From Bradyrhizobium diazoefficiens (lineage in GTDB: Bacteria; Pseudomonadota; Alphaproteobacteria; Rhizobiales; Xanthobacteraceae): DNA of 64,000 bases. Below are positions 31,379 to 63,507 of the stretch, piece after piece (within the stretch, counting starts at the first letter, position 1; every line of letters starts with the position of its first letter). The stretch lies in assembly GCF_016616885.1 (NCBI RefSeq), contig NZ_CP067102.1:3996501-4060500 (forward strand), written 5' to 3'. The notes below the pieces were generated by a model that made no database searches, was not told the origin of the DNA, and worked only from the letters and a program-made list of their open reading frames with translations. The translations under genes were made by a program, and so were the position numbers.

Positions 31379-31620
31379 ATCTGGCCTCCTCGGGTATCGC
31401 GCGGAAGCTTGCAGGGCTCCCAAACTGCCAAGTTCCCGAAGGCCTAGACGATTCGAGATGGGATTGACTACGCCGGCCAGCGGAGTGGGTTTCGCGTGAT
31501 TTGTCAGGGAATCCACGCGTTCCCGCCAGCCCCGGACGAACGCAACGCGCGAGATTCGACGCAGGCGTCGTCAATCAGGCTGAGGACGTACTGCTAAGTT
31601 TTTGAAGATGCTACCAAAAA

Positions 31621-31671
31621 TGGCGCGAGAGACGGGGCTCGAACCCGCGACCTCCGGCGTGACAGGCCGGC
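31621..31671 (-). tRNA. tRNA-Asp(GUC) 3' fragment, left prophage attachment site
   Basis: On the minus strand the anticodon stem-loop CCGGC-CTGTCAC-GCCGG (GTC), variable loop, T-arm GGGTTCGAGCCCC and acceptor 3' strand ending GCGCCA are complete. The matching 5' acceptor (GCGAGAG) and a pairing D-arm are absent; sequence to the right is unrelated. This is the mark of integration in the 3' half of a tRNA gene; the intact gene should lie at the right end of the prophage, beyond this window. Confidence 0.85.
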
Positions 31672-31743
31672 GCTTTTCAACCGCTCACCACGCTTGATCA
31701 AGCTGCGATTCGACTCCGGGCCCCCAAACGCCCAAAGCAAGAC

Positions 31744-31802: not shown

Positions 31803-33125
31803 TCATTTCCGGGCTCCATCCTTGGCAACGCGCAGCACCGAGCGACCGCGCGTGCGGGCTTCGTCGGCGAGCCTGACGACGGCGGTCTGGGCCGGCAGAT
31901 AGGTCGCCTGCAGCTCGCGGCTCTCGTCGATCGTGTTGGCCATCTTTGCGGCCAGTGCGGCCGGATCGACCTTGCCGGCGACAGCCTCGAGCGCACCGGA
32001 GCGGCGGAAATCCGAGACCTTCCTGGTCTCGCCGGGAAACTCGGCGACGCGCACCACCCGGAAATCCTTCGACAGGGTATCCTTGGTGTACATCGCCGGC
32101 GGCCGCGGCCGGCCACCCTTCGGGCCGGTCCCGCTGCCGCGGGTATGGAAGATCGGCTTGCTGGGATGCAGCTCGAAAGGCAGCTGCTTGATGTACCATC
32201 TCAGCAGGATCCGCGTCCGTGACGATAGCGTGCCGATCGCGCCCTTACCGCTCTTGGTGCGGTCGACGTCGAAAACCGGTCCCTGGGCATCCGGATAGAG
32301 CTTCGCGGTCGTCAGCGATCGCACGTCGACGGGCGAGAACTGCGTATCCCAGCAGACTGCCAGCGCGGCGGCGAGTCCGTAGTACTCCATGCGGATCGCA
32401 CGCTTCACCAGGCGCACGGCATCGTCGTAGAGCCAGACCGCATCGCGGGCCTTTGGCGTTTGCCGGCGGATGCCGAGCGATGGATCCTTGCCCTCGACAT
32501 AGCGCTCGCCATCCTCGCGCTTGAGCACGGACAGCACGCCATAGAGCGCGCGCCAGATCTTCATCGCGCGATGTGCCTCACGCACGCCGACGCCGCCTTC
32601 CTCACGCGGCGCGAGCAGTCCGGGAATTTTCGGATCGTCCGGATCGCCCCCATACCAGAGATCGAGATCCTCGAAAGAGATCGTGCGCGCGTCGACGTCG
32701 CCGAAAACGGGCTCGATGTACTTCCAGCCGCGCAGCCAGTCCTCGCGCGTGCGCGGCTTCTTTTTTTCCCAGGTCGCAGTGCCGCGAAATCGCGCAAAGC
32801 CTTCACCGACACTGTTGGGCGGGTAGATGCGCTCCTGCGAGGCCATGACGATGATCGGTTTGCCCTTCTCATCAATCTCGCCGCGCTTGTACCTCGCGAA
32901 GGTTTCGTCCCAGCGTGCATTCCAGCCCTCGGCAATCGCCCAGGCGGAAGGTCCGTCCTGGCCGCAGTCGACCAGCGCGAAGCCGAGCTTCGCCATCAAT
33001 GTCGGTTCGATCTCGCCAGATTTCTTACTGCGACGCGCGAGGCAGGGCGCCCAGTAGCCCCATTTCTTGGTGCCAGGTGCGTCTCCTCCGCGTGTCACGT
33101 AGTAGCGGATATTCACCTTACCCAT
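31803..33125 (-). CDS. int: Phage tyrosine integrase, divergent
   Basis: 440 aa from ATG at 33125, overlapping the stop of the excisionase-like gene (ATGGGTAA); an earlier ATG at 33161 lies inside that gene. The catalytic domain shows Arg I in FSPVDVRSL, the beta-hairpin Lys in DRTKSGKG, Arg II in KVSDFRRSGAL, and the nucleophile Tyr probably in LQATYLPAQ. The His of HxxR reads Ser, and the later His/Trp position falls in AAKMANTID, so two of the usual residues differ. Position next to the tRNA fragment makes it the integration enzyme. Confidence 0.9.
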   Translation of the reverse strand: MGKVNIRYYVTRGGDAPGTKKWGYWAPCLARRSKKSGEIEPTLMAKLGFALVDCGQDGPSAWAIAEGWNARWDETFARYKRGEIDEKGKPIIVMASQERIYPPNSVGEGFARFRGTATWEKKKPRTREDWLRGWKYIEPVFGDVDARTISFEDLDLWYGGDPDDPKIPGLLAPREEGGVGVREAHRAMKIWRALYGVLSVLKREDGERYVEGKDPSLGIRRQTPKARDAVWLYDDAVRLVKRAIRMEYYGLAAALAVCWDTQFSPVDVRSLTTAKLYPDAQGPVFDVDRTKSGKGAIGTLSSRTRILLRWYIKQLPFELHPSKPIFHTRGSGTGPKGGRPRPPAMYTKDTLSKDFRVVRVAEFPGETRKVSDFRRSGALEAVAGKVDPAALAAKMANTIDESRELQATYLPAQTAVVRLADEARTRGRSVLRVAKDGARK

Positions 33126-33408
33126 CCCGAGCCCCAGCCAGCCTTGCGCGAACGACGTCACGAGCGTCGCGCGCGGTGCTGACCGGAGTCAAATTGGGGC
33201 GGAAGATCTGTGGATGACGCGCCCGACGCCACGTGTCGATCGCGTCGAGGTCGTAGTTGCCCGTGGTCGGGTCGGGAGGCGGAAACCCGCGCTGGAGCAG
33301 CTCGGGCAGCTTCTCGTTAAACTGCGCCAGGGACAGCCAGATTCGGCGCGCAGCGACTTCGGGCGGACAGTCTCCGCCTGGCGGAAGATGAAAGCGCATG
33401 CTGCTCAT
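33118..33408 (-). CDS. Excisionase/AlpA-like small DNA-binding protein
   Basis: 96 aa from ATG at 33408 (AGGG upstream), sharing ATGA with the gene before. RRIWLSLAQFNEKLPELLQRGFPPPDPTTGNYDLDAIDTWRRAR is the winged-helix layout of AlpA/Xis-type proteins (LGLS..F....L.RGFP.P....G..D..AID.W). Directly upstream of, and overlapping, int, as excisionases usually are. It probably sets recombination direction. Confidence 0.75.
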   Translation of the reverse strand: MSSMRFHLPPGGDCPPEVAARRIWLSLAQFNEKLPELLQRGFPPPDPTTGNYDLDAIDTWRRARHPQIFRPNLTPVSTARDARDVVRARLAGARDG

Positions 33409-35827: not shown

Positions 35828-36076
35828 ATGACTGGGGTGCCGACGCCATCGCATTGGCGTCAGGCGATGGCGATCGCGGCGCAAATGCCACCTGATGAAG
35901 CGGATGCCTTGCTAGTGCTGGACTGTGTCGAGGAGATTTTGCGGCTGAGCTTCGGGTCGCCGCCTACGGCACCGGTGGATCCGGACGACGGTCAGCTGCT
36001 TCGTTTTCCCGGGGGGTCAAGCAGTCCTAGGCGCCGCGCCACGTCGAGCGGCAGGCCGTCTGGCTTTCCAAAATAG
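35828..36076 (+). CDS. Small phage protein, unknown
   Basis: 82 aa from ATG at 35828 (another in-frame ATG at 35810). The N-terminal part TPSHWRQAMAIAAQMPPDEADALLVLDCVEEILRLSFG looks like real helical protein; the C-terminal tail is Arg/Ser-rich and overlaps the repressor gene's 3' end by 85 bp on the other strand. It may be the immunity-region gene on the far side of the operators. Confidence 0.45.
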   Translation: MTGVPTPSHWRQAMAIAAQMPPDEADALLVLDCVEEILRLSFGSPPTAPVDPDDGQLLRFPGGSSSPRRRATSSGRPSGFPK

Positions 36077-36363
36077 AGGTAGTCCAACGTCATACCCGGG
36101 ATGCGGCGCACGATCTGCAGCGCGACCGGAAGGCTGAGGCGCGCGCCATTCTCGAATGGGTTGTACGTCTGGACCGGAATGTCGAGAAAGCGCGCAAAGG
36201 CCGCGGCTTCGGTGTAGCCGTAAGCTGCGCGAAGCGCCTTCAGGCGCCCGGTCTGTCCTGGAATTGCCTCAACACGCTGCGGACGCGCGGTCGGTCGACC
36301 GGTCTTCACCATGGGGCCGGAAAATGCCGCACGGACAGATTCGGGGCTATCGAGCGTTTCCAT
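35992..36363 (-). CDS. CI-like HTH transcriptional repressor
   Basis: 123 aa from ATG at 36363; longer frames run back through the operator and are unlikely. LKALRAAYGYTEAAAFARFLDIPVQTYNPFENGARLSLPVALQIVRRI is an XRE-type helix-turn-helix, and MTLDYLYFGKPDGLP is the usual ending of such small phage repressors. It lacks a LexA-like self-cleaving domain, so induction must work differently. It is divergent from the Cro-like gene across the operator at 36374. Confidence 0.8.
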   Translation of the reverse strand: METLDSPESVRAAFSGPMVKTGRPTARPQRVEAIPGQTGRLKALRAAYGYTEAAAFARFLDIPVQTYNPFENGARLSLPVALQIVRRIPGMTLDYLYFGKPDGLPLDVARRLGLLDPPGKRSS

Positions 36364-36367
36364 TGCG

Positions 36368-36396
36368 TTGATCTTCTCAAAAATCGGGATTATCGA
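36368..36396 (+). promoter_or_regulatory. Predicted rightward early promoter with operator in its spacer
   Basis: TTGATC (36368-36373), 17 bp, TATCGA (36391-36396). The spacer 36374-36390 (TTCTCAAAAATCGGGAT) matches O1/O2 at 15 of 17 positions. Transcription would begin near 36403, practically at the ATG of the Cro-like gene (36404). Confidence 0.6.
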
Positions 36397-36403
36397 TTGG
36401 GGC

Positions 36404-36676
36404 ATGCCAAAGCCCGAATCGAGACAGTTGAAGACTGCCACCGAGGTGATCGACGCGTTGGGCCAAGCCCGCGTGAGCGAGCTGACCGGCAAAACCTACA
36501 AGCAGGTGTGGGCGTGGCGCGCCGATGGCGCCTTTCCCGCGCGCTATTTCCTGGCGATGTGGTCCGAGCTCGTCGCGCAGGGCTACTCCGCTCCGCCGGG
36601 CCTGTGGGGGCAGACGATCTCGCGCAACAAGGAAGTGGTGCTGACGCTGCTCGCCCGGAAGTTGAGGGCTGCGTAA
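36404..36676 (+). CDS. Cro-like small DNA-binding protein
   Basis: 90 aa from ATG at 36404. ATEVIDALGQARVSELTGKTYKQVWAWRADGAFPARYFLAMWSELVAQG is a YdaS/Cro-type helix-turn-helix in which the protein picks between lysogeny and lysis. Divergent from the repressor and first in the rightward operon. With the predicted promoter its mRNA would be nearly leaderless, and no ribosome site is seen. Confidence 0.75.
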   Translation: MPKPESRQLKTATEVIDALGQARVSELTGKTYKQVWAWRADGAFPARYFLAMWSELVAQGYSAPPGLWGQTISRNKEVVLTLLARKLRAA

Positions 36677-36831
36677 TGGAATCGCGGTGGTTCATACGCG
36701 GGAGTCATCACGGCTGACGGCACAGAGTCGAATCGGGCGCAAGGCCCGCGCGTCCCTGTGGAAAACTTTTTCCGCGTTTTGTGTGTTGCGTTGCGTTTTC
36801 TCCTCTATCCCTCCAAGTGGCTGAGTCCGCA

Positions 36832-37035
36832 ATGAAACTGCTGCGCGATCGTTGGCGGCGCACCGCCTTCCATCGATATTTCGCTGATCTTCCCGTCGTC
36901 GACCGGGTGACGTTCTACGTGGTGGTTGCGCTCATCCTCGCCGCGGCCACGGCCTTTACAGCGCTCGCTCGCACGCCGGCCGCGACAGATCTCTTCACGG
37001 CGCCGCCGTTCGCATTGCGGTTCGCATCGCGGTGA
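36832..37035 (+). CDS. Small membrane protein of the prophage early region
   Basis: 67 aa from ATG at 36832. Basic N-terminus (KLLRDRWRRTAFHR) and one helix VTFYVVVALILAAATAFTALA. Its TGA overlaps the GTG of the replication gene. No family recognised; superinfection exclusion is a usual role for such proteins but nothing here proves it. The 155 bp before it contain the inverted repeat GGAAAACTTTTTCC near 36760. Confidence 0.6.
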   Translation: MKLLRDRWRRTAFHRYFADLPVVDRVTFYVVVALILAAATAFTALARTPAATDLFTAPPFALRFASR

Positions 37036-38108
37036 CAGACCGACCTGTCCCAGATGCCAAAGCCTTCACCGCCGCCAAGCTCGCACTGGCGGATATCGTT
37101 CGCCATGACGGAGCGCTGTCGGCCTCGTCCAGGTTGATCGGCGCCGAGATCTGCTCGCTCGCCAACGAGCGCACCGGCTACTCATGGGCGTCGGAGCGAT
37201 ACCTCGCCGAGAAACTCTCGGTCGCCGACCGCACCATTAAGCGCGCGATCGTTGCGCTGAAGGCCGCCGGCTACATCGAGGTGACGAAGGCCGGCCGCAA
37301 CAACCGCTACCGTCCGCTGTTTGGCGCGCTCGAAAAGGGGACAAAATGTCCCCTATCTGAGGCCGATAGGGGACACCAGAGTCCCCTTTCCGACGAAAAC
37401 AGGGGACAAAAAGAGCCGCAACAGGGGACATTTTCGCCCGAAAATAGGGGACAAAAAGGCCCTCCTATCTCTTTAGAGATCTCTTTAGGGATCTCTTCGC
37501 GCCCGCCCGCGAGCGCCGGCGGCGCCGGGCCGACGGCATCCTCGCCCGATTTCGATCTCGGTCTGCCGGGCGTGGCCTTGCGGCAGCGTCTCGGCGACGA
37601 CGTCTTCCGCTCCTGGCTCGGCAGGGTGGGCTTTGCGGGGGTGGTCGGGGACGAGCTCGTGCTCACGGCGCCAACCCGATTTGTGGCCCAGCACCTCTCA
37701 AACAACTTCGAGACGGCCATCGTCGCGGCATTCCGGGTCGCCTATGCGTCCGTTGCCCGGTTGAGGGTGGAAGTGGCCCCCCAGGCCGTCACCGCGCTCA
37801 GGGGCGCTCGCAAGGGCCCTGAGGACCCTGATGCCCGATGGCTCGTCGACATCGGCATCGCGACGGTCGCCGAGCGCATGCGGCTGCCGCGCGACCGGGC
37901 GGATCGACTGCTGGTCGGCTGGCTGAAGCGCTCCGGTCGAGACGCCGCGGGCCTACGGCGGATCATCGAGGAGGCGTCCGCGCAGGATCTCGTCGAGGCC
38001 CAGTTCGCCAACGTGCTCAAGCAGCGAACCAAGGCGCTGCTTTTTTCCGATCAGGTCGCCATGGAATTCCTTCGGCGGCCGCAAGCCGTCAAGCGGAGGG
38101 TTTCGTGA
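37032..38108 (+). CDS. Phage replication initiator-like protein (winged HTH plus DnaA-N-like domain)
   Basis: 358 aa from GTG at 37032. Residues ~10-100 form a helix-turn-helix (GYSWASERYLAEKLSVADRTIKRAIVALKAAGYIEV). A low-complexity linker (~100-175, repeats of ENRGQK and ISLE/ISLG) follows, then GDDVFRSWLGRVGFAGVVGDELVLTAPTRFVAQHLSNNF, like the DnaA N-terminal domain that recruits helicase. No AAA+ or Walker motifs are seen. By analogy with lambda O, it should bind the iterons lying inside its own gene and load host helicase. Confidence 0.78.
   Translation: MTDRPVPDAKAFTAAKLALADIVRHDGALSASSRLIGAEICSLANERTGYSWASERYLAEKLSVADRTIKRAIVALKAAGYIEVTKAGRNNRYRPLFGALEKGTKCPLSEADRGHQSPLSDENRGQKEPQQGTFSPENRGQKGPPISLEISLGISSRPPASAGGAGPTASSPDFDLGLPGVALRQRLGDDVFRSWLGRVGFAGVVGDELVLTAPTRFVAQHLSNNFETAIVAAFRVAYASVARLRVEVAPQAVTALRGARKGPEDPDARWLVDIGIATVAERMRLPRDRADRLLVGWLKRSGRDAAGLRRIIEEASAQDLVEAQFANVLKQRTKALLFSDQVAMEFLRRPQAVKRRVS
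37336..37499 (+). repeat. Iteron array and AT-richer repeats inside the replication gene, candidate phage origin
   Basis: AGGGGACA occurs at 37336, 37368, 37401, 37423 and 37446: spacings 32, 33, 22, 23 bp, i.e. three or two helix turns. Inverted copies lie at 37347 (TGTCCCCT) and, with one mismatch, 37380; the first pair forms GGGGACAAAATGTCCCC. Directly after come ATCTCTTTAG at 37467 and 37479 and ATCTCTTCG at 37491, period 12, resembling an unwinding element. The layout is that of lambdoid origins inside gene O. Confidence 0.72.
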
Positions 38109-39227: not shown

Positions 39228-39442
39228 TGCAGGAACGCAGCCGCCGCGAGCCCGCCCAAGGCTTTAATCACCGCACGCCAGCCGTGAAGCGGCTCACCAC
39301 CAGCTTTGACGACACCACGTTCGCAGAGATCCGCGAGCTCGCGGTGGCACAGCAGACCAGCGCGGCCGACCAGGTCCGCCAGCTCGTGGAATTCGGTCTC
39401 GAGACGCTGAAGCGCGCGAAGGAAGCGACGCCTGGTGTTTGA
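39227..39442 (+). CDS. Ribbon-helix-helix DNA-binding protein
   Basis: 71 aa from ATG at 39227. VKRLTTSFDDTTFAEIRELAVAQQTSAADQVRQLVEFGLETLK matches the CopG/Arc pattern: a short strand pairing in the dimer, then two helices. Likely a small phage transcription regulator. The next gene starts inside its last codons. Confidence 0.72.
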   Translation: MQERSRREPAQGFNHRTPAVKRLTTSFDDTTFAEIRELAVAQQTSAADQVRQLVEFGLETLKRAKEATPGV

Positions 39443-40049
39443 TCCACGGACCTGCAAGATCGGCGATCCAGCCGGCTTCGTGAAGATCTCGCGGCCGATG
39501 CCGTTGCACTTGGCTGGGCCGTTGTTCTGGCACATCGTGCGGGCGCTTCCGCGCCGAACGCACCTGGCGGTGAGGAAGATGGAAGCGATCGGGCTCAAGC
39601 CCTATTTGCCGGTCCAGCACCGCTCGATCCCGGCCGGGCGCCGGCGCAAACGAGAGGTCGAAGAGCCGCTTCTCGGCGATCGCGTGTTTGTCCAGCTTCC
39701 GCTGACCGTTGAAGCGTTCTGGCGCGTGCGCGAGCTTCACGAGGTCGACGACTTCCTGATGATGATGGACGGTCTCAAGCCTGCGCTGGTGCCGGACCAT
39801 GTCATCGAGATCATCCGCGAGGTCGAGGCGATCAAGGATCGCAAATACCGCAAGAAGCTCGCGAAGAAAGAGGAGAGCCCGTACCACCGCGGGCGCCAAG
39901 TGTGGGCCGACATCATGACGCGCCGCCTACTCGGCACGATCGAAGGGCTCGATGCGCGCGGGCGGATCGAGGTGAGCCTTGAGAGCGAAGTTTTCGGCCG
40001 GCGTAGCTGGCCGATCGAGCCGCACCTCGTTCGCTTCATCGACGTTTAA
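39435..40049 (+). CDS. NusG-like (NGN domain) phage transcription factor
   Basis: 204 aa from GTG at 39435. PLFWHIVRALPRRTHLAVRKMEAIGLKPYLPV, then a basic stretch (RRRKREVEEPLLGDRVFVQLPL), is the NusG N-terminal pattern (W..V...P..E..A...L...G...YLP, G.lFV...). The C-terminal part (ARGRIEVSLESEVFGRRSWPIEPHLVRFIDV) could be a KOW-like module. It sits at the end of the early operon, upstream of late genes, where an antiterminator would be placed. Confidence 0.68.
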   Translation: MFDPRTCKIGDPAGFVKISRPMPLHLAGPLFWHIVRALPRRTHLAVRKMEAIGLKPYLPVQHRSIPAGRRRKREVEEPLLGDRVFVQLPLTVEAFWRVRELHEVDDFLMMMDGLKPALVPDHVIEIIREVEAIKDRKYRKKLAKKEESPYHRGRQVWADIMTRRLLGTIEGLDARGRIEVSLESEVFGRRSWPIEPHLVRFIDV

Positions 40050-40841: not shown

Positions 40842-41042
40842 ATGGCGGACCATATCTGGCACCCGCACCGCTGCACCTGCATGGCGTGCGGCCTCACGGT
40901 CGAGGGCCTGCTCAACAAGCCGGACGCAAAGTGCAGCGGCAGGCTGCAGTTTCGCGAGATCCTCGATTGCCGGCCCTCGGGCCCGCGCTGGATCTGCGAG
41001 CCGATCGACGTTACCCGTCCTGTGTCAAGCTGGGGTAGATGA
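40842..41042 (+). CDS. Small zinc-finger-like phage protein
   Basis: 66 aa from ATG at 40842, GAGG upstream. HPHRCTCMACGLTVEGLLNKPDAKCSG offers His/Cys ligands for one zinc. The stop overlaps the start of the second recombinase gene (ATGA). Confidence 0.55.
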   Translation: MADHIWHPHRCTCMACGLTVEGLLNKPDAKCSGRLQFREILDCRPSGPRWICEPIDVTRPVSSWGR

Positions 41043-41971
41043 CCTCCCGCGAGATCGTCGACCCGATGGCCTCGGTGCGGGCCTATCTCGCCGCCTCGAG
41101 TTCGAGTAGCACCAGGCGAGCCTATGCCTCGGACTGGGCCGACTTCACCACCTGGTGCAGCCAGATCCTCGAGCAGCCTCTGCCGGCCCTCCCGGAAACC
41201 ATTGCCCGCTACCTGGCGCAGCTCGCCGACGGCGGCAGCAAGACATCCACCATCCAGCGGCGCATCGCCGCGCTCGCTGCGGCCCACCGGGCTGCAGGCT
41301 TCGATCCGCCGCCCACCAGCGCAGAAGGCGTTAGGGCCACGATGCGCGGCATCCGCCGCACGCTCGGCGCCAGGCAGACCAGGAAAGCTCCGACCACGGC
41401 CGAGCTGCTCGGCCGTGTGCTTCACAACTTGCCAAAGACCCTGCAGGGCTTGCGCGATCGGGCGATTCTGCTTGTCAGTTTTGCCGCCGCGCTGCGCAGA
41501 TCCGAGCTAGTCGCTTTACATGTGCATCACATCGAGCGCCGCCCCCGCGGCATTGTGATTCACATCGCCGGATCCAAGACCGACCAGGAAGGGAAGGGTG
41601 AGCAGCTCCCGGTACCGAACGGCCGCCAGCTGCGCCCGGTCGATGCCCTCGATGCCTGGCTCGAGGCTGCCGGCATCACCGAGGGGCCGATCTTCCGGGA
41701 AATCGATCGGCACGGAAAGGTGGGGTTAACCCCACTTTCAGGGCGCTCGATCGCGCGGATCGTAAAGCGGGCCGTCAAGGCCTGCGGACTGGATGAGAGC
41801 ATTTTCTCCGGCCATTCGATGCGCGCCGGCTTCGTCACCACGGCGCTCGCCGACAAGCAGGATCCGCTGAAGGTCGCGAAGATCTCGCGGCACAAGAAGA
41901 TCGACACGCTTCGCATCTACGACCGCAAGGAAGCGGATTTCGACGATCACGCCGGCGGGGGGTTTCTGTAG
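41039..41971 (+). CDS. Second tyrosine recombinase (XerC/D-like)
   Basis: 310 aa. N-terminal SAM-like core-binding domain (STRRAYASDWADFTTWC). Catalytic residues are all present: Arg in AALRRSELVAL, Lys in GSKTDQEGKG, His/Arg in FSGHSMRAGF, His in ISRHKKIDTL and Tyr in LRIYDRKEADF. Unlike the integrase at the left edge it has the canonical set. It lies between early and packaging genes, so it may resolve genome multimers or act at a separate site. Confidence 0.9.
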   Translation: MTSREIVDPMASVRAYLAASSSSSTRRAYASDWADFTTWCSQILEQPLPALPETIARYLAQLADGGSKTSTIQRRIAALAAAHRAAGFDPPPTSAEGVRATMRGIRRTLGARQTRKAPTTAELLGRVLHNLPKTLQGLRDRAILLVSFAAALRRSELVALHVHHIERRPRGIVIHIAGSKTDQEGKGEQLPVPNGRQLRPVDALDAWLEAAGITEGPIFREIDRHGKVGLTPLSGRSIARIVKRAVKACGLDESIFSGHSMRAGFVTTALADKQDPLKVAKISRHKKIDTLRIYDRKEADFDDHAGGGFL

Positions 41972-63373: not shown

Positions 63374-63507
63374 CGCCGGCAGTCACCGAACAACTGGTCG
63401 ACAGGACCGCTGCAGCTGCGTTTTTCGTGATGGGGCATGACCAGCATGATCACGATGCTGGCGGCGATGGCCCAGAGCGCTGTGATGAGATCGCGGCGGT
63501 GAAACAT
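63370..63507 (-). CDS. 45-aa membrane protein, reverse strand
   Basis: ATG at 63507: MFHRRDLITALWAIAASIVIMLVMPHHEKR..., one helix then a cysteine-containing tail (SCSGPVDQLFGDC). Its stop and the collar gene stop overlap as CTAG (63370-63373), a tidy convergent junction. No clear ribosome site. Placed next to the endolysin gene; a spanin-like or regulatory role cannot be shown. Confidence 0.5.
   Translation of the reverse strand: MFHRRDLITALWAIAASIVIMLVMPHHEKRSCSGPVDQLFGDCRR

Follow-up and report, generated by a model that had tools for sequence, protein, structure and literature searches.

A phased repeat array inside a prophage gene

We analysed a 64-kb stretch of the Bradyrhizobium diazoefficiens genome (the window, meaning the whole stretch, with positions counted from its first base). 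A 41.9-kb tRNA-Asp prophage begins in it, and one gene of this prophage, which encodes a helix-turn-helix (HTH) protein that we predict to be the replication initiator, contains a phased array of short repeats (iterons) followed by an AT-rich block. AGGGGAC occurs seven times within 118 bp of this gene, five times in direct and twice in inverted orientation. The parts of the gene and of the array are as follows.

37032..38108, + strand: predicted initiator gene; GTG start, 358 amino acids; the start overlaps the stop of the preceding open reading frame (ORF), 36781-37035
37056..37343, + strand: winged-helix DNA-binding domain, residues 9-104; Pfam HTH_36 at residues 29-82; predicted local distance difference test score (pLDDT) of the model about 80-90
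37336..37343, + strand: iteron 1, AGGGGACA; perfect inverted partner at 37347-37354; encodes residues 102-104, the end of the folded domain
37344..37553, + strand: disordered linker, residues 105-174, pLDDT <50; its DNA carries nearly the whole array and the AT-rich block
37347..37354, - strand: inverted copy, 8/8
37368..37375, + strand: iteron 2, AGGGGACA
37380..37387, - strand: inverted copy, 7/8
37401..37408, + strand: iteron 3, AGGGGACA
37423..37430, + strand: iteron 4, AGGGGACA, 22 bp past iteron 3
37446..37453, + strand: iteron 5, AGGGGACA, 23 bp past iteron 4
37466..37498, no strand: AT-rich block, candidate unwinding element; ATCTCTT at 37467, 37479 and 37491, 12 bp apart
37560..37775, + strand: DnaA domain I-like module, residues 177-248; proposed helicase-recruiting part
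37827..38066, + strand: C-terminal helical region, residues 266-345

The direct copies are spaced by 32, 33, 22 and 23 bp. The six exact AGGGGACA 8-mers of the array are the only ones in the window. In 100 dinucleotide shuffles of the window the 8-mer appeared 0.85 times on average and never more than 4 times, and the whole genome (8.09 Mb) has 49 copies, 6 of them in the array. A sequence-only reading of this DNA had reported five phased AGGGGACA copies and three ATCTCTT repeats of 12-bp period, all of which are present. The two inverted copies it described also exist, but only that at 37347 is exact, and its placement of the repeats in the linker-coding part holds for nearly all of them, the first direct copy lying at the end of the folded domain. 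An inverted partner matching 7/8 or 8/8 stands at two of the five iterons, while the remaining sites match at 3, 5 and 4 of 8 positions. No DnaA box was found at the array; TTWTNCACA with at most one mismatch occurs 23 times in the window against 23.2 expected, and GATCTCTTTAG with up to two mismatches is likewise at chance level there (8 versus 8.0). The window's only perfect DnaA-box-like site is TTTTCCACA at 36757-36765 (- strand), 0.3 kb upstream of the initiator start.

Constraint on the DNA

Synonymous shuffling exchanges codons among identical residues and leaves protein and codon usage unchanged. Seven copies of a 7-mer within 200 bp were reached in none of 1000 such shuffles (largest 5), nor in any of 1000 resamplings from the codon usage of the window (largest 6). 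Under the same repeat tests none of 40 other window genes was positive, up to the first 900 bases of each frame being tested here and in the fresh-draw loci described below. The gene for lambda O, a known case, passed the 7-mer test (0/1000 shuffles). The copies occupy two reading frames and both strands, so a repeated peptide does not explain them, and the DNA constraint proposed by the sequence-only reading is borne out by these results. Since residues 105-174 are disordered, array and AT-rich block lie almost wholly where the protein should tolerate much change.

Close relatives

A match was found in 7 of 391 genomes of the family, the window's own included. The protein of L021 (genome G345) is 68% identical to the window protein. 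Where the two have identical residues, the same codon is used at 20/23 positions over iterons 3-5 and at 12/13 over the 12-bp block, compared with 39/69 in the N-terminus and winged helix, 25/46 in DnaA_N and 29/62 in the C-terminus. The expectation that an alignment of homologues would show the repeat DNA kept beyond what its codons require is thus upheld for these parts; it fails for iterons 1-2, which are not better kept (4/7).

Five direct GGGGACA copies recur at lags of 33, 32, 22 and 23 bp in L021 and in the viral contigs L084 and L139, one copy in L084 having no leading A. Inverted partners number two in L139, one in L084 and none in L021; the 30-bp AT block is identical in L084 and different in L139. 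A cousin, L059, has AGGGGCA in the orientation pattern + - + - + + +. A tblastn search of named phage and plasmid records with the window protein gave no match, nor did separate searches of genome contigs with the protein and with the 30-bp AT block.

A common layout with different words

We then examined a first set of 34 genes of relatives, from which near copies of L029 (L062-L066) and a DnaA_N fragment (L033) had been removed before the lag and triple tests. Hits with DnaA_N only were set aside as chromosomal DnaA by length and position. Eleven viral loci were found, of which L003 and L011 were tested, and L026, which has internal stops, was only inspected. Direct 7-mer repeats at a lag of 22 bp numbered 157 pairs in 21 of the 34 genes (100 shuffles: mean 6.0, largest 16), and those at 23 bp numbered 59 pairs in 15 genes (mean 3.7, largest 12). 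Lags of 32-36, 44, 45, 65 and 110 bp were also well over the shuffles, as were those of 9, 12, 14, 54, 69, 76, 78, 79, 91 and 114 bp; many of the enriched lags are no multiple of three. The 7-mer test (at most 2 of 200 shuffles) was passed by 21/34 genes, a test for triples at 22/23 bp (at most 3 of 300) by 18/34, and one or the other by 24/34.

Repetition is also seen in the linker peptide, and a period of 12 bp, as in the AT-rich block, is a multiple of three. The array might accordingly have no function as DNA and merely reflect a disordered peptide with repeats. Given copies in two frames and on either strand, frame-breaking spacings (32, 22 and 23 bp), the absence of any comparable array among 1000 synonymous shuffles, the codon-level conservation and lag peaks off the triplet, we regard this as scarcely credible. 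A peptide-repeat origin of the array was rejected on the strength of the shuffles, the non-triplet lags and the conserved codons.

Other relatives have different iteron words, the more distant ones often at the 22/23 spacing: AAGGCGA (L022, L029), CAGACCG (L031), AGGTGCC (L037), GTACGAA (L067), ATGCGCA (L069), GGTGCAA (L073), AAGGCGG (L074) and GGCGAAC (L081). L067 and L069 share nearly the same AT-rich block and an LSLSLVES peptide after the array and have different recognition helices. With their wholly different iterons, GTACGAA and ATGCGCA, they are a natural cassette-change pair.

Measured from the last iteron, GC content was 0.36 at 20-39 bp downstream, 0.50 in the next bin, then 0.69 and 0.71, against a gene mean of 0.61; this average covers the 23 genes that we chose for a usable triple. 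A 5-mer recurred at lag 12 in 11 of 21 genes (synonymous null: mean 5.8, maximum 10 in 500 draws from the same segments), these genes again being chosen by us for a usable triple and including three close relatives.

For a fresh draw, a profile of 18 N-domains was searched, giving matches in 47/397 genomes of the order and 14/385 of the class; the draw took in the returned loci, less L130, an 81-residue frame. Either test was passed by 26 of the 32 new loci at the threshold of 3/300 (7-mer 19, triple 17), and by 24/29 without L092, L095 and L096, which resemble earlier loci. Matches on short or secondary contigs (G504 C2; G750 C15 and C16) are possibly plasmids. Very long internal arrays were seen in L104 (12 copies of CCCCGTC), L126 (9 copies of CTGCTCA at 22-24 bp) and L124, which has repeated EQNLHVA peptides.

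Recognition helix and iteron word

The recognition helix of the window protein begins DRTIKRAI. In a set of 24 genes, similar 12-residue recognition helices went with similar iterons (r 0.32, P 0.0004), and controlling for the rest of the domain left this link in place (0.27, P 0.0006). Taken by itself, the rest of the domain was linked to the iterons too (0.18, P 0.019), but this link vanished when the helix was controlled for (0.02, P 0.43). The partial correlation for the helix was 0.18 (P 0.03) after removal of close relatives (n=20) and 0.22 (P 0.0002) after addition of the new loci (n=41). For 33 non-redundant genes it was 0.14 (P 0.011), and that for the rest of the domain 0.06 (P 0.18). 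Genes were permuted in these tests, which leaves shared ancestry in. Relatives preserve the layout and differ in the DNA words, which apparently change along with the protein part that reads them; support for the helix reading the word is moderate and comes from the closer set.

We also searched viral contigs from the DNA alone. Three AAGGCGAA copies 20-24 bp apart occurred in 75 stretches. Both stretches with 22/22 spacing lie in such an HTH gene (one on the contig of L022, the other in L213, a new locus), compared with none of the 73 at multiple-of-three spacing. Three AGGGGACA copies occurred in 24 stretches, lying in HTH genes in 3 of 8 cases at 22/23 spacing (L139, L145 and L149, the last two being the same sequence) and in 0 of 16 otherwise. 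The control word ACAGGGGA gave 12 stretches, 4 of them shared with AGGGGACA, with HTH genes in 0/4 at 22/23 and 1/8 otherwise. One array was counted per stretch in this comparison. Nine AGGGGACA stretches were inspected more closely; the majority look like repeats of another kind, and in L146 an HTH gene adjoins the array. In L145 (105-1376) and L149 (4289-5560), on viral contigs of 175 and 101 kb, AGGGGACA stands at 23/23 spacing inside the gene of a distant HTH protein with the recognition helix RTIKRT, that is, the window's word with a similar helix. L137 and L148 carry many AGGGGACATGTCCCCT palindromes scattered over both viral contigs, a pattern that suggests a dispersed mobile or repeat element rather than an origin.

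The encoded protein and a proposed mechanism

Pfam identified HTH_36 (E 8.4e-10) and DnaA_N at residues 182-234 (E 7.1e-8) in the window protein. As the sequence-only reading had it, an HTH is combined with a DnaA-N-like domain and no ATPase motif: among the Pfam hits of the 358 residues there was no ATPase family, AAA+ or DnaA-box-binding domain, nor a plasmid Rep family, and no RepC family up to E 1. A structure model built with six sequences (mean pLDDT 66.6) is folded to residue 104 and has folded modules after residue 174. The first of these modules is homologous to domain I of the host DnaA by Pfam, alignment and solved structures. The C-terminal helical region is missing in several relatives that end after DnaA_N, such as L022 and L025.

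The array, its constraint at the DNA level, the layout common to relatives, the change of words and the homology of the module to DnaA domain I are computed results, and the candidate origin is well supported by them. We consider it highly likely that 37336-37498 is the replication origin of the prophage, located, as in lambda, inside the prophage's own initiator gene, in the part that codes for the linker. The winged helix of the protein would bind the AGGGGACA iterons through its recognition helix, the first two sites as inverted pairs and the last three as direct copies two helical turns apart. Binding would open the adjoining AT-rich block. The DnaA domain I-like module, which the linker ties to the winged helix and which takes the place of the C-terminus of lambda O, would then probably recruit the host DnaB helicase, the task that lambda O performs through P.

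The fold of the N-domain is close to that of many transcription regulators, and a protein bound to the array, which follows the start codon, could act as a roadblock. The repeats might accordingly be autoregulatory operators, through which the protein controls its own expression or phage transcription, with replication starting elsewhere. A fixed array beside an AT-rich block and replication-initiation family names fit an origin better, and no exact AGGGGACA lies elsewhere in the window, which makes operators an improbable explanation.

Points against the origin and the helicase step

Several observations weigh against the origin and its proposed working. Both repeat tests were failed by 10 of the 34 first-set genes (L003, L028, L030, L040, L041, L061, L076, L078, L079 and L080) and by 6 of the 32 in the fresh draw. 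The sequence-only reading had counted homologues with intact domains and no repeats as evidence against itself. Such genes occur in a minority, including L028 and L061, whose two domains are intact, while 24 of the 34 pass. Imperfect repeats are present in some failing genes (L041, L076, L079 and L040), and one dyad and a half-site were seen by eye in L028. The 12-bp period is largely common to the peptide, AT-richness being the firmer signal. At n=41 a link between the rest of the domain and the iterons persisted when the helix was controlled for (0.14, P 0.006), and helix and iterons were not linked in the 13 new non-redundant loci by themselves (r 0.05, P 0.40); shared ancestry therefore plays a part. 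The cumulative GC skew of the prophage peaks at 36793, near the array, but only at 63, whereas its minimum, at 63394, is -233; the skew thus speaks neither for nor against the origin. Iteron binding, opening, helicase recruitment and use of the origin are steps that we infer. Finally, E21, one of two named DnaB contacts in E. coli, has no equivalent in the window protein: in the E. coli register a valine stands at its position both there and in the host DnaA.

This last point also fits another reading, in which the origin stands and the module contacts host DnaA or a different domain I partner instead of DnaB. DnaA domain I has been solved in complexes with SirA (4tps) and HobA (2wp0), and the available part of PMC5448010 describes varied domain I partners. 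On the other side, F217, the counterpart of F46, is invariant in five aligned initiators and present in the host DnaA, and relatives carry primosome-like C-termini in the place of the module. A Pfam scan of seven ORFs between 38105 and 41968 found no helicase or loader, which suggests that the phage depends on a host helicase. A partner other than DnaB is therefore rather unlikely, if far from negligible.

Comparison with known systems

In lambda, as here, the iterons occupy the central part of the initiator gene, where they separate the DNA-binding from the C-terminal part, and an AT-rich region follows them. The internal iterons of O are 20, 24 and 23 bp apart, and the resemblance to lambda ori within O noted by the sequence-only reading is confirmed. 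The portion of PMC7466680 available describes lambda and Stx origins in mid-O, each having an AT-rich region and 4 or 6 iterons, and, together with that of PMC5043065, every lambda iteron as an inverted repeat, whereas three of the five window sites have no good inverted partner. The window protein also differs in having DnaA_N on its C-terminal side. BLASTP found no similarity between it and lambda O. Its PHROG matches to O-like families (phrog_678, 1.8e-6; phrog_391, 5e-6) concern the N-part only and end by residue 140; no O-type C-terminal domain was found in it, residues 182-234 being DnaA_N. Because of this, and because its N-part matches O-like families but not lambda O itself, we did not file it as an O protein, although by analogy it would work like one. 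A sequence search of the solved structures with lambda O gave no match that would let its N-domain fold be set beside that of the window protein.

With DnaA and oriC the window shares domain I homology and word repeats beside three AT-rich repeats, which in E. coli oriC are 13-mers according to the accessible part of PMC5043065. Unlike DnaA, the window protein has a winged helix in place of the AAA+ and DnaA DNA-binding domains, and the array contains no DnaA box. The repABC oriV lies inside repC near an A+T-rich region and is affected by silent mutations (PMC3155836, in part), which resembles the present arrangement of an origin within an initiator gene near such a region; in the same part of that source repC is reported to have no iterons, unlike the window array. 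In iteron plasmids, as in the window, an AT-rich region adjoins direct repeats that are phased with the helix (PMC5043065, in part); the window iterons differ in lying inside the initiator gene. Given lambda O and repC, an origin within an initiator gene is already known. We found no phage initiator combining HTH and DnaA_N with internal iterons in the open-licence literature, outside which a paper could exist.

Prophage setting

31619..31674, no strand: left end of the prophage, 56-bp tRNA-Asp repeat; partner at 73505-73560 in extended window coordinates

The two 56-bp repeats bound 41,886 bp. Upstream of the initiator are a weak HTH_3 repressor candidate at 35992-36492 (- strand), below Pfam's cut-off, and a small ORF at 36311-36676 (+ strand) without a Pfam or PHROG hit. 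We take this order of repressor candidate, small ORF and initiator to be reminiscent of cI-cro-O. A NusG-like protein, a transcription antiterminator by PHROG, is encoded at 39435-40049. A tyrosine recombinase gene (41039-41971) lies mid-prophage beside terminase genes, and the ORF adjoining the attachment site, where an integrase is expected (31803-33161, - strand), has no Pfam or PHROG hit.

Significance

Two things are new here, the variant with DnaA domain I and a constant layout in which the words can be exchanged; interest is limited by the long-known lambda precedent and raised by the common layout. A prophage HTH protein becomes a predicted initiator plus origin with precise coordinates, so that replicon and specificity may be read from one gene, and the presence of the DnaA domain I module suggests that the helicase is recruited with no loader encoded by the phage. 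A change of word and helix on a fixed scaffold makes it possible to ask how initiator-origin pairs shift specificity yet keep function, a question that the few lambdoid examples hardly allow.

We tentatively suggest, as a possibility that we hold with some doubt, a single origin blueprint inside the initiator linker across temperate phages and related elements of the class Alphaproteobacteria: copies at about 0, 33, 65, 87 and 110 bp, then an AT-rich block, with winged helix and repeat word changing as one cassette, and helicase-recruiting C-termini (DnaA domain I and several others) swapped independently. If this is true, each phage would get its own replication specificity, and nature would supply the data from which a winged-helix/DNA code could be read, with pairings such as TIKRA or TIQRA helices beside GGACA words and AVQI or GVQL beside AAGGCGAA.
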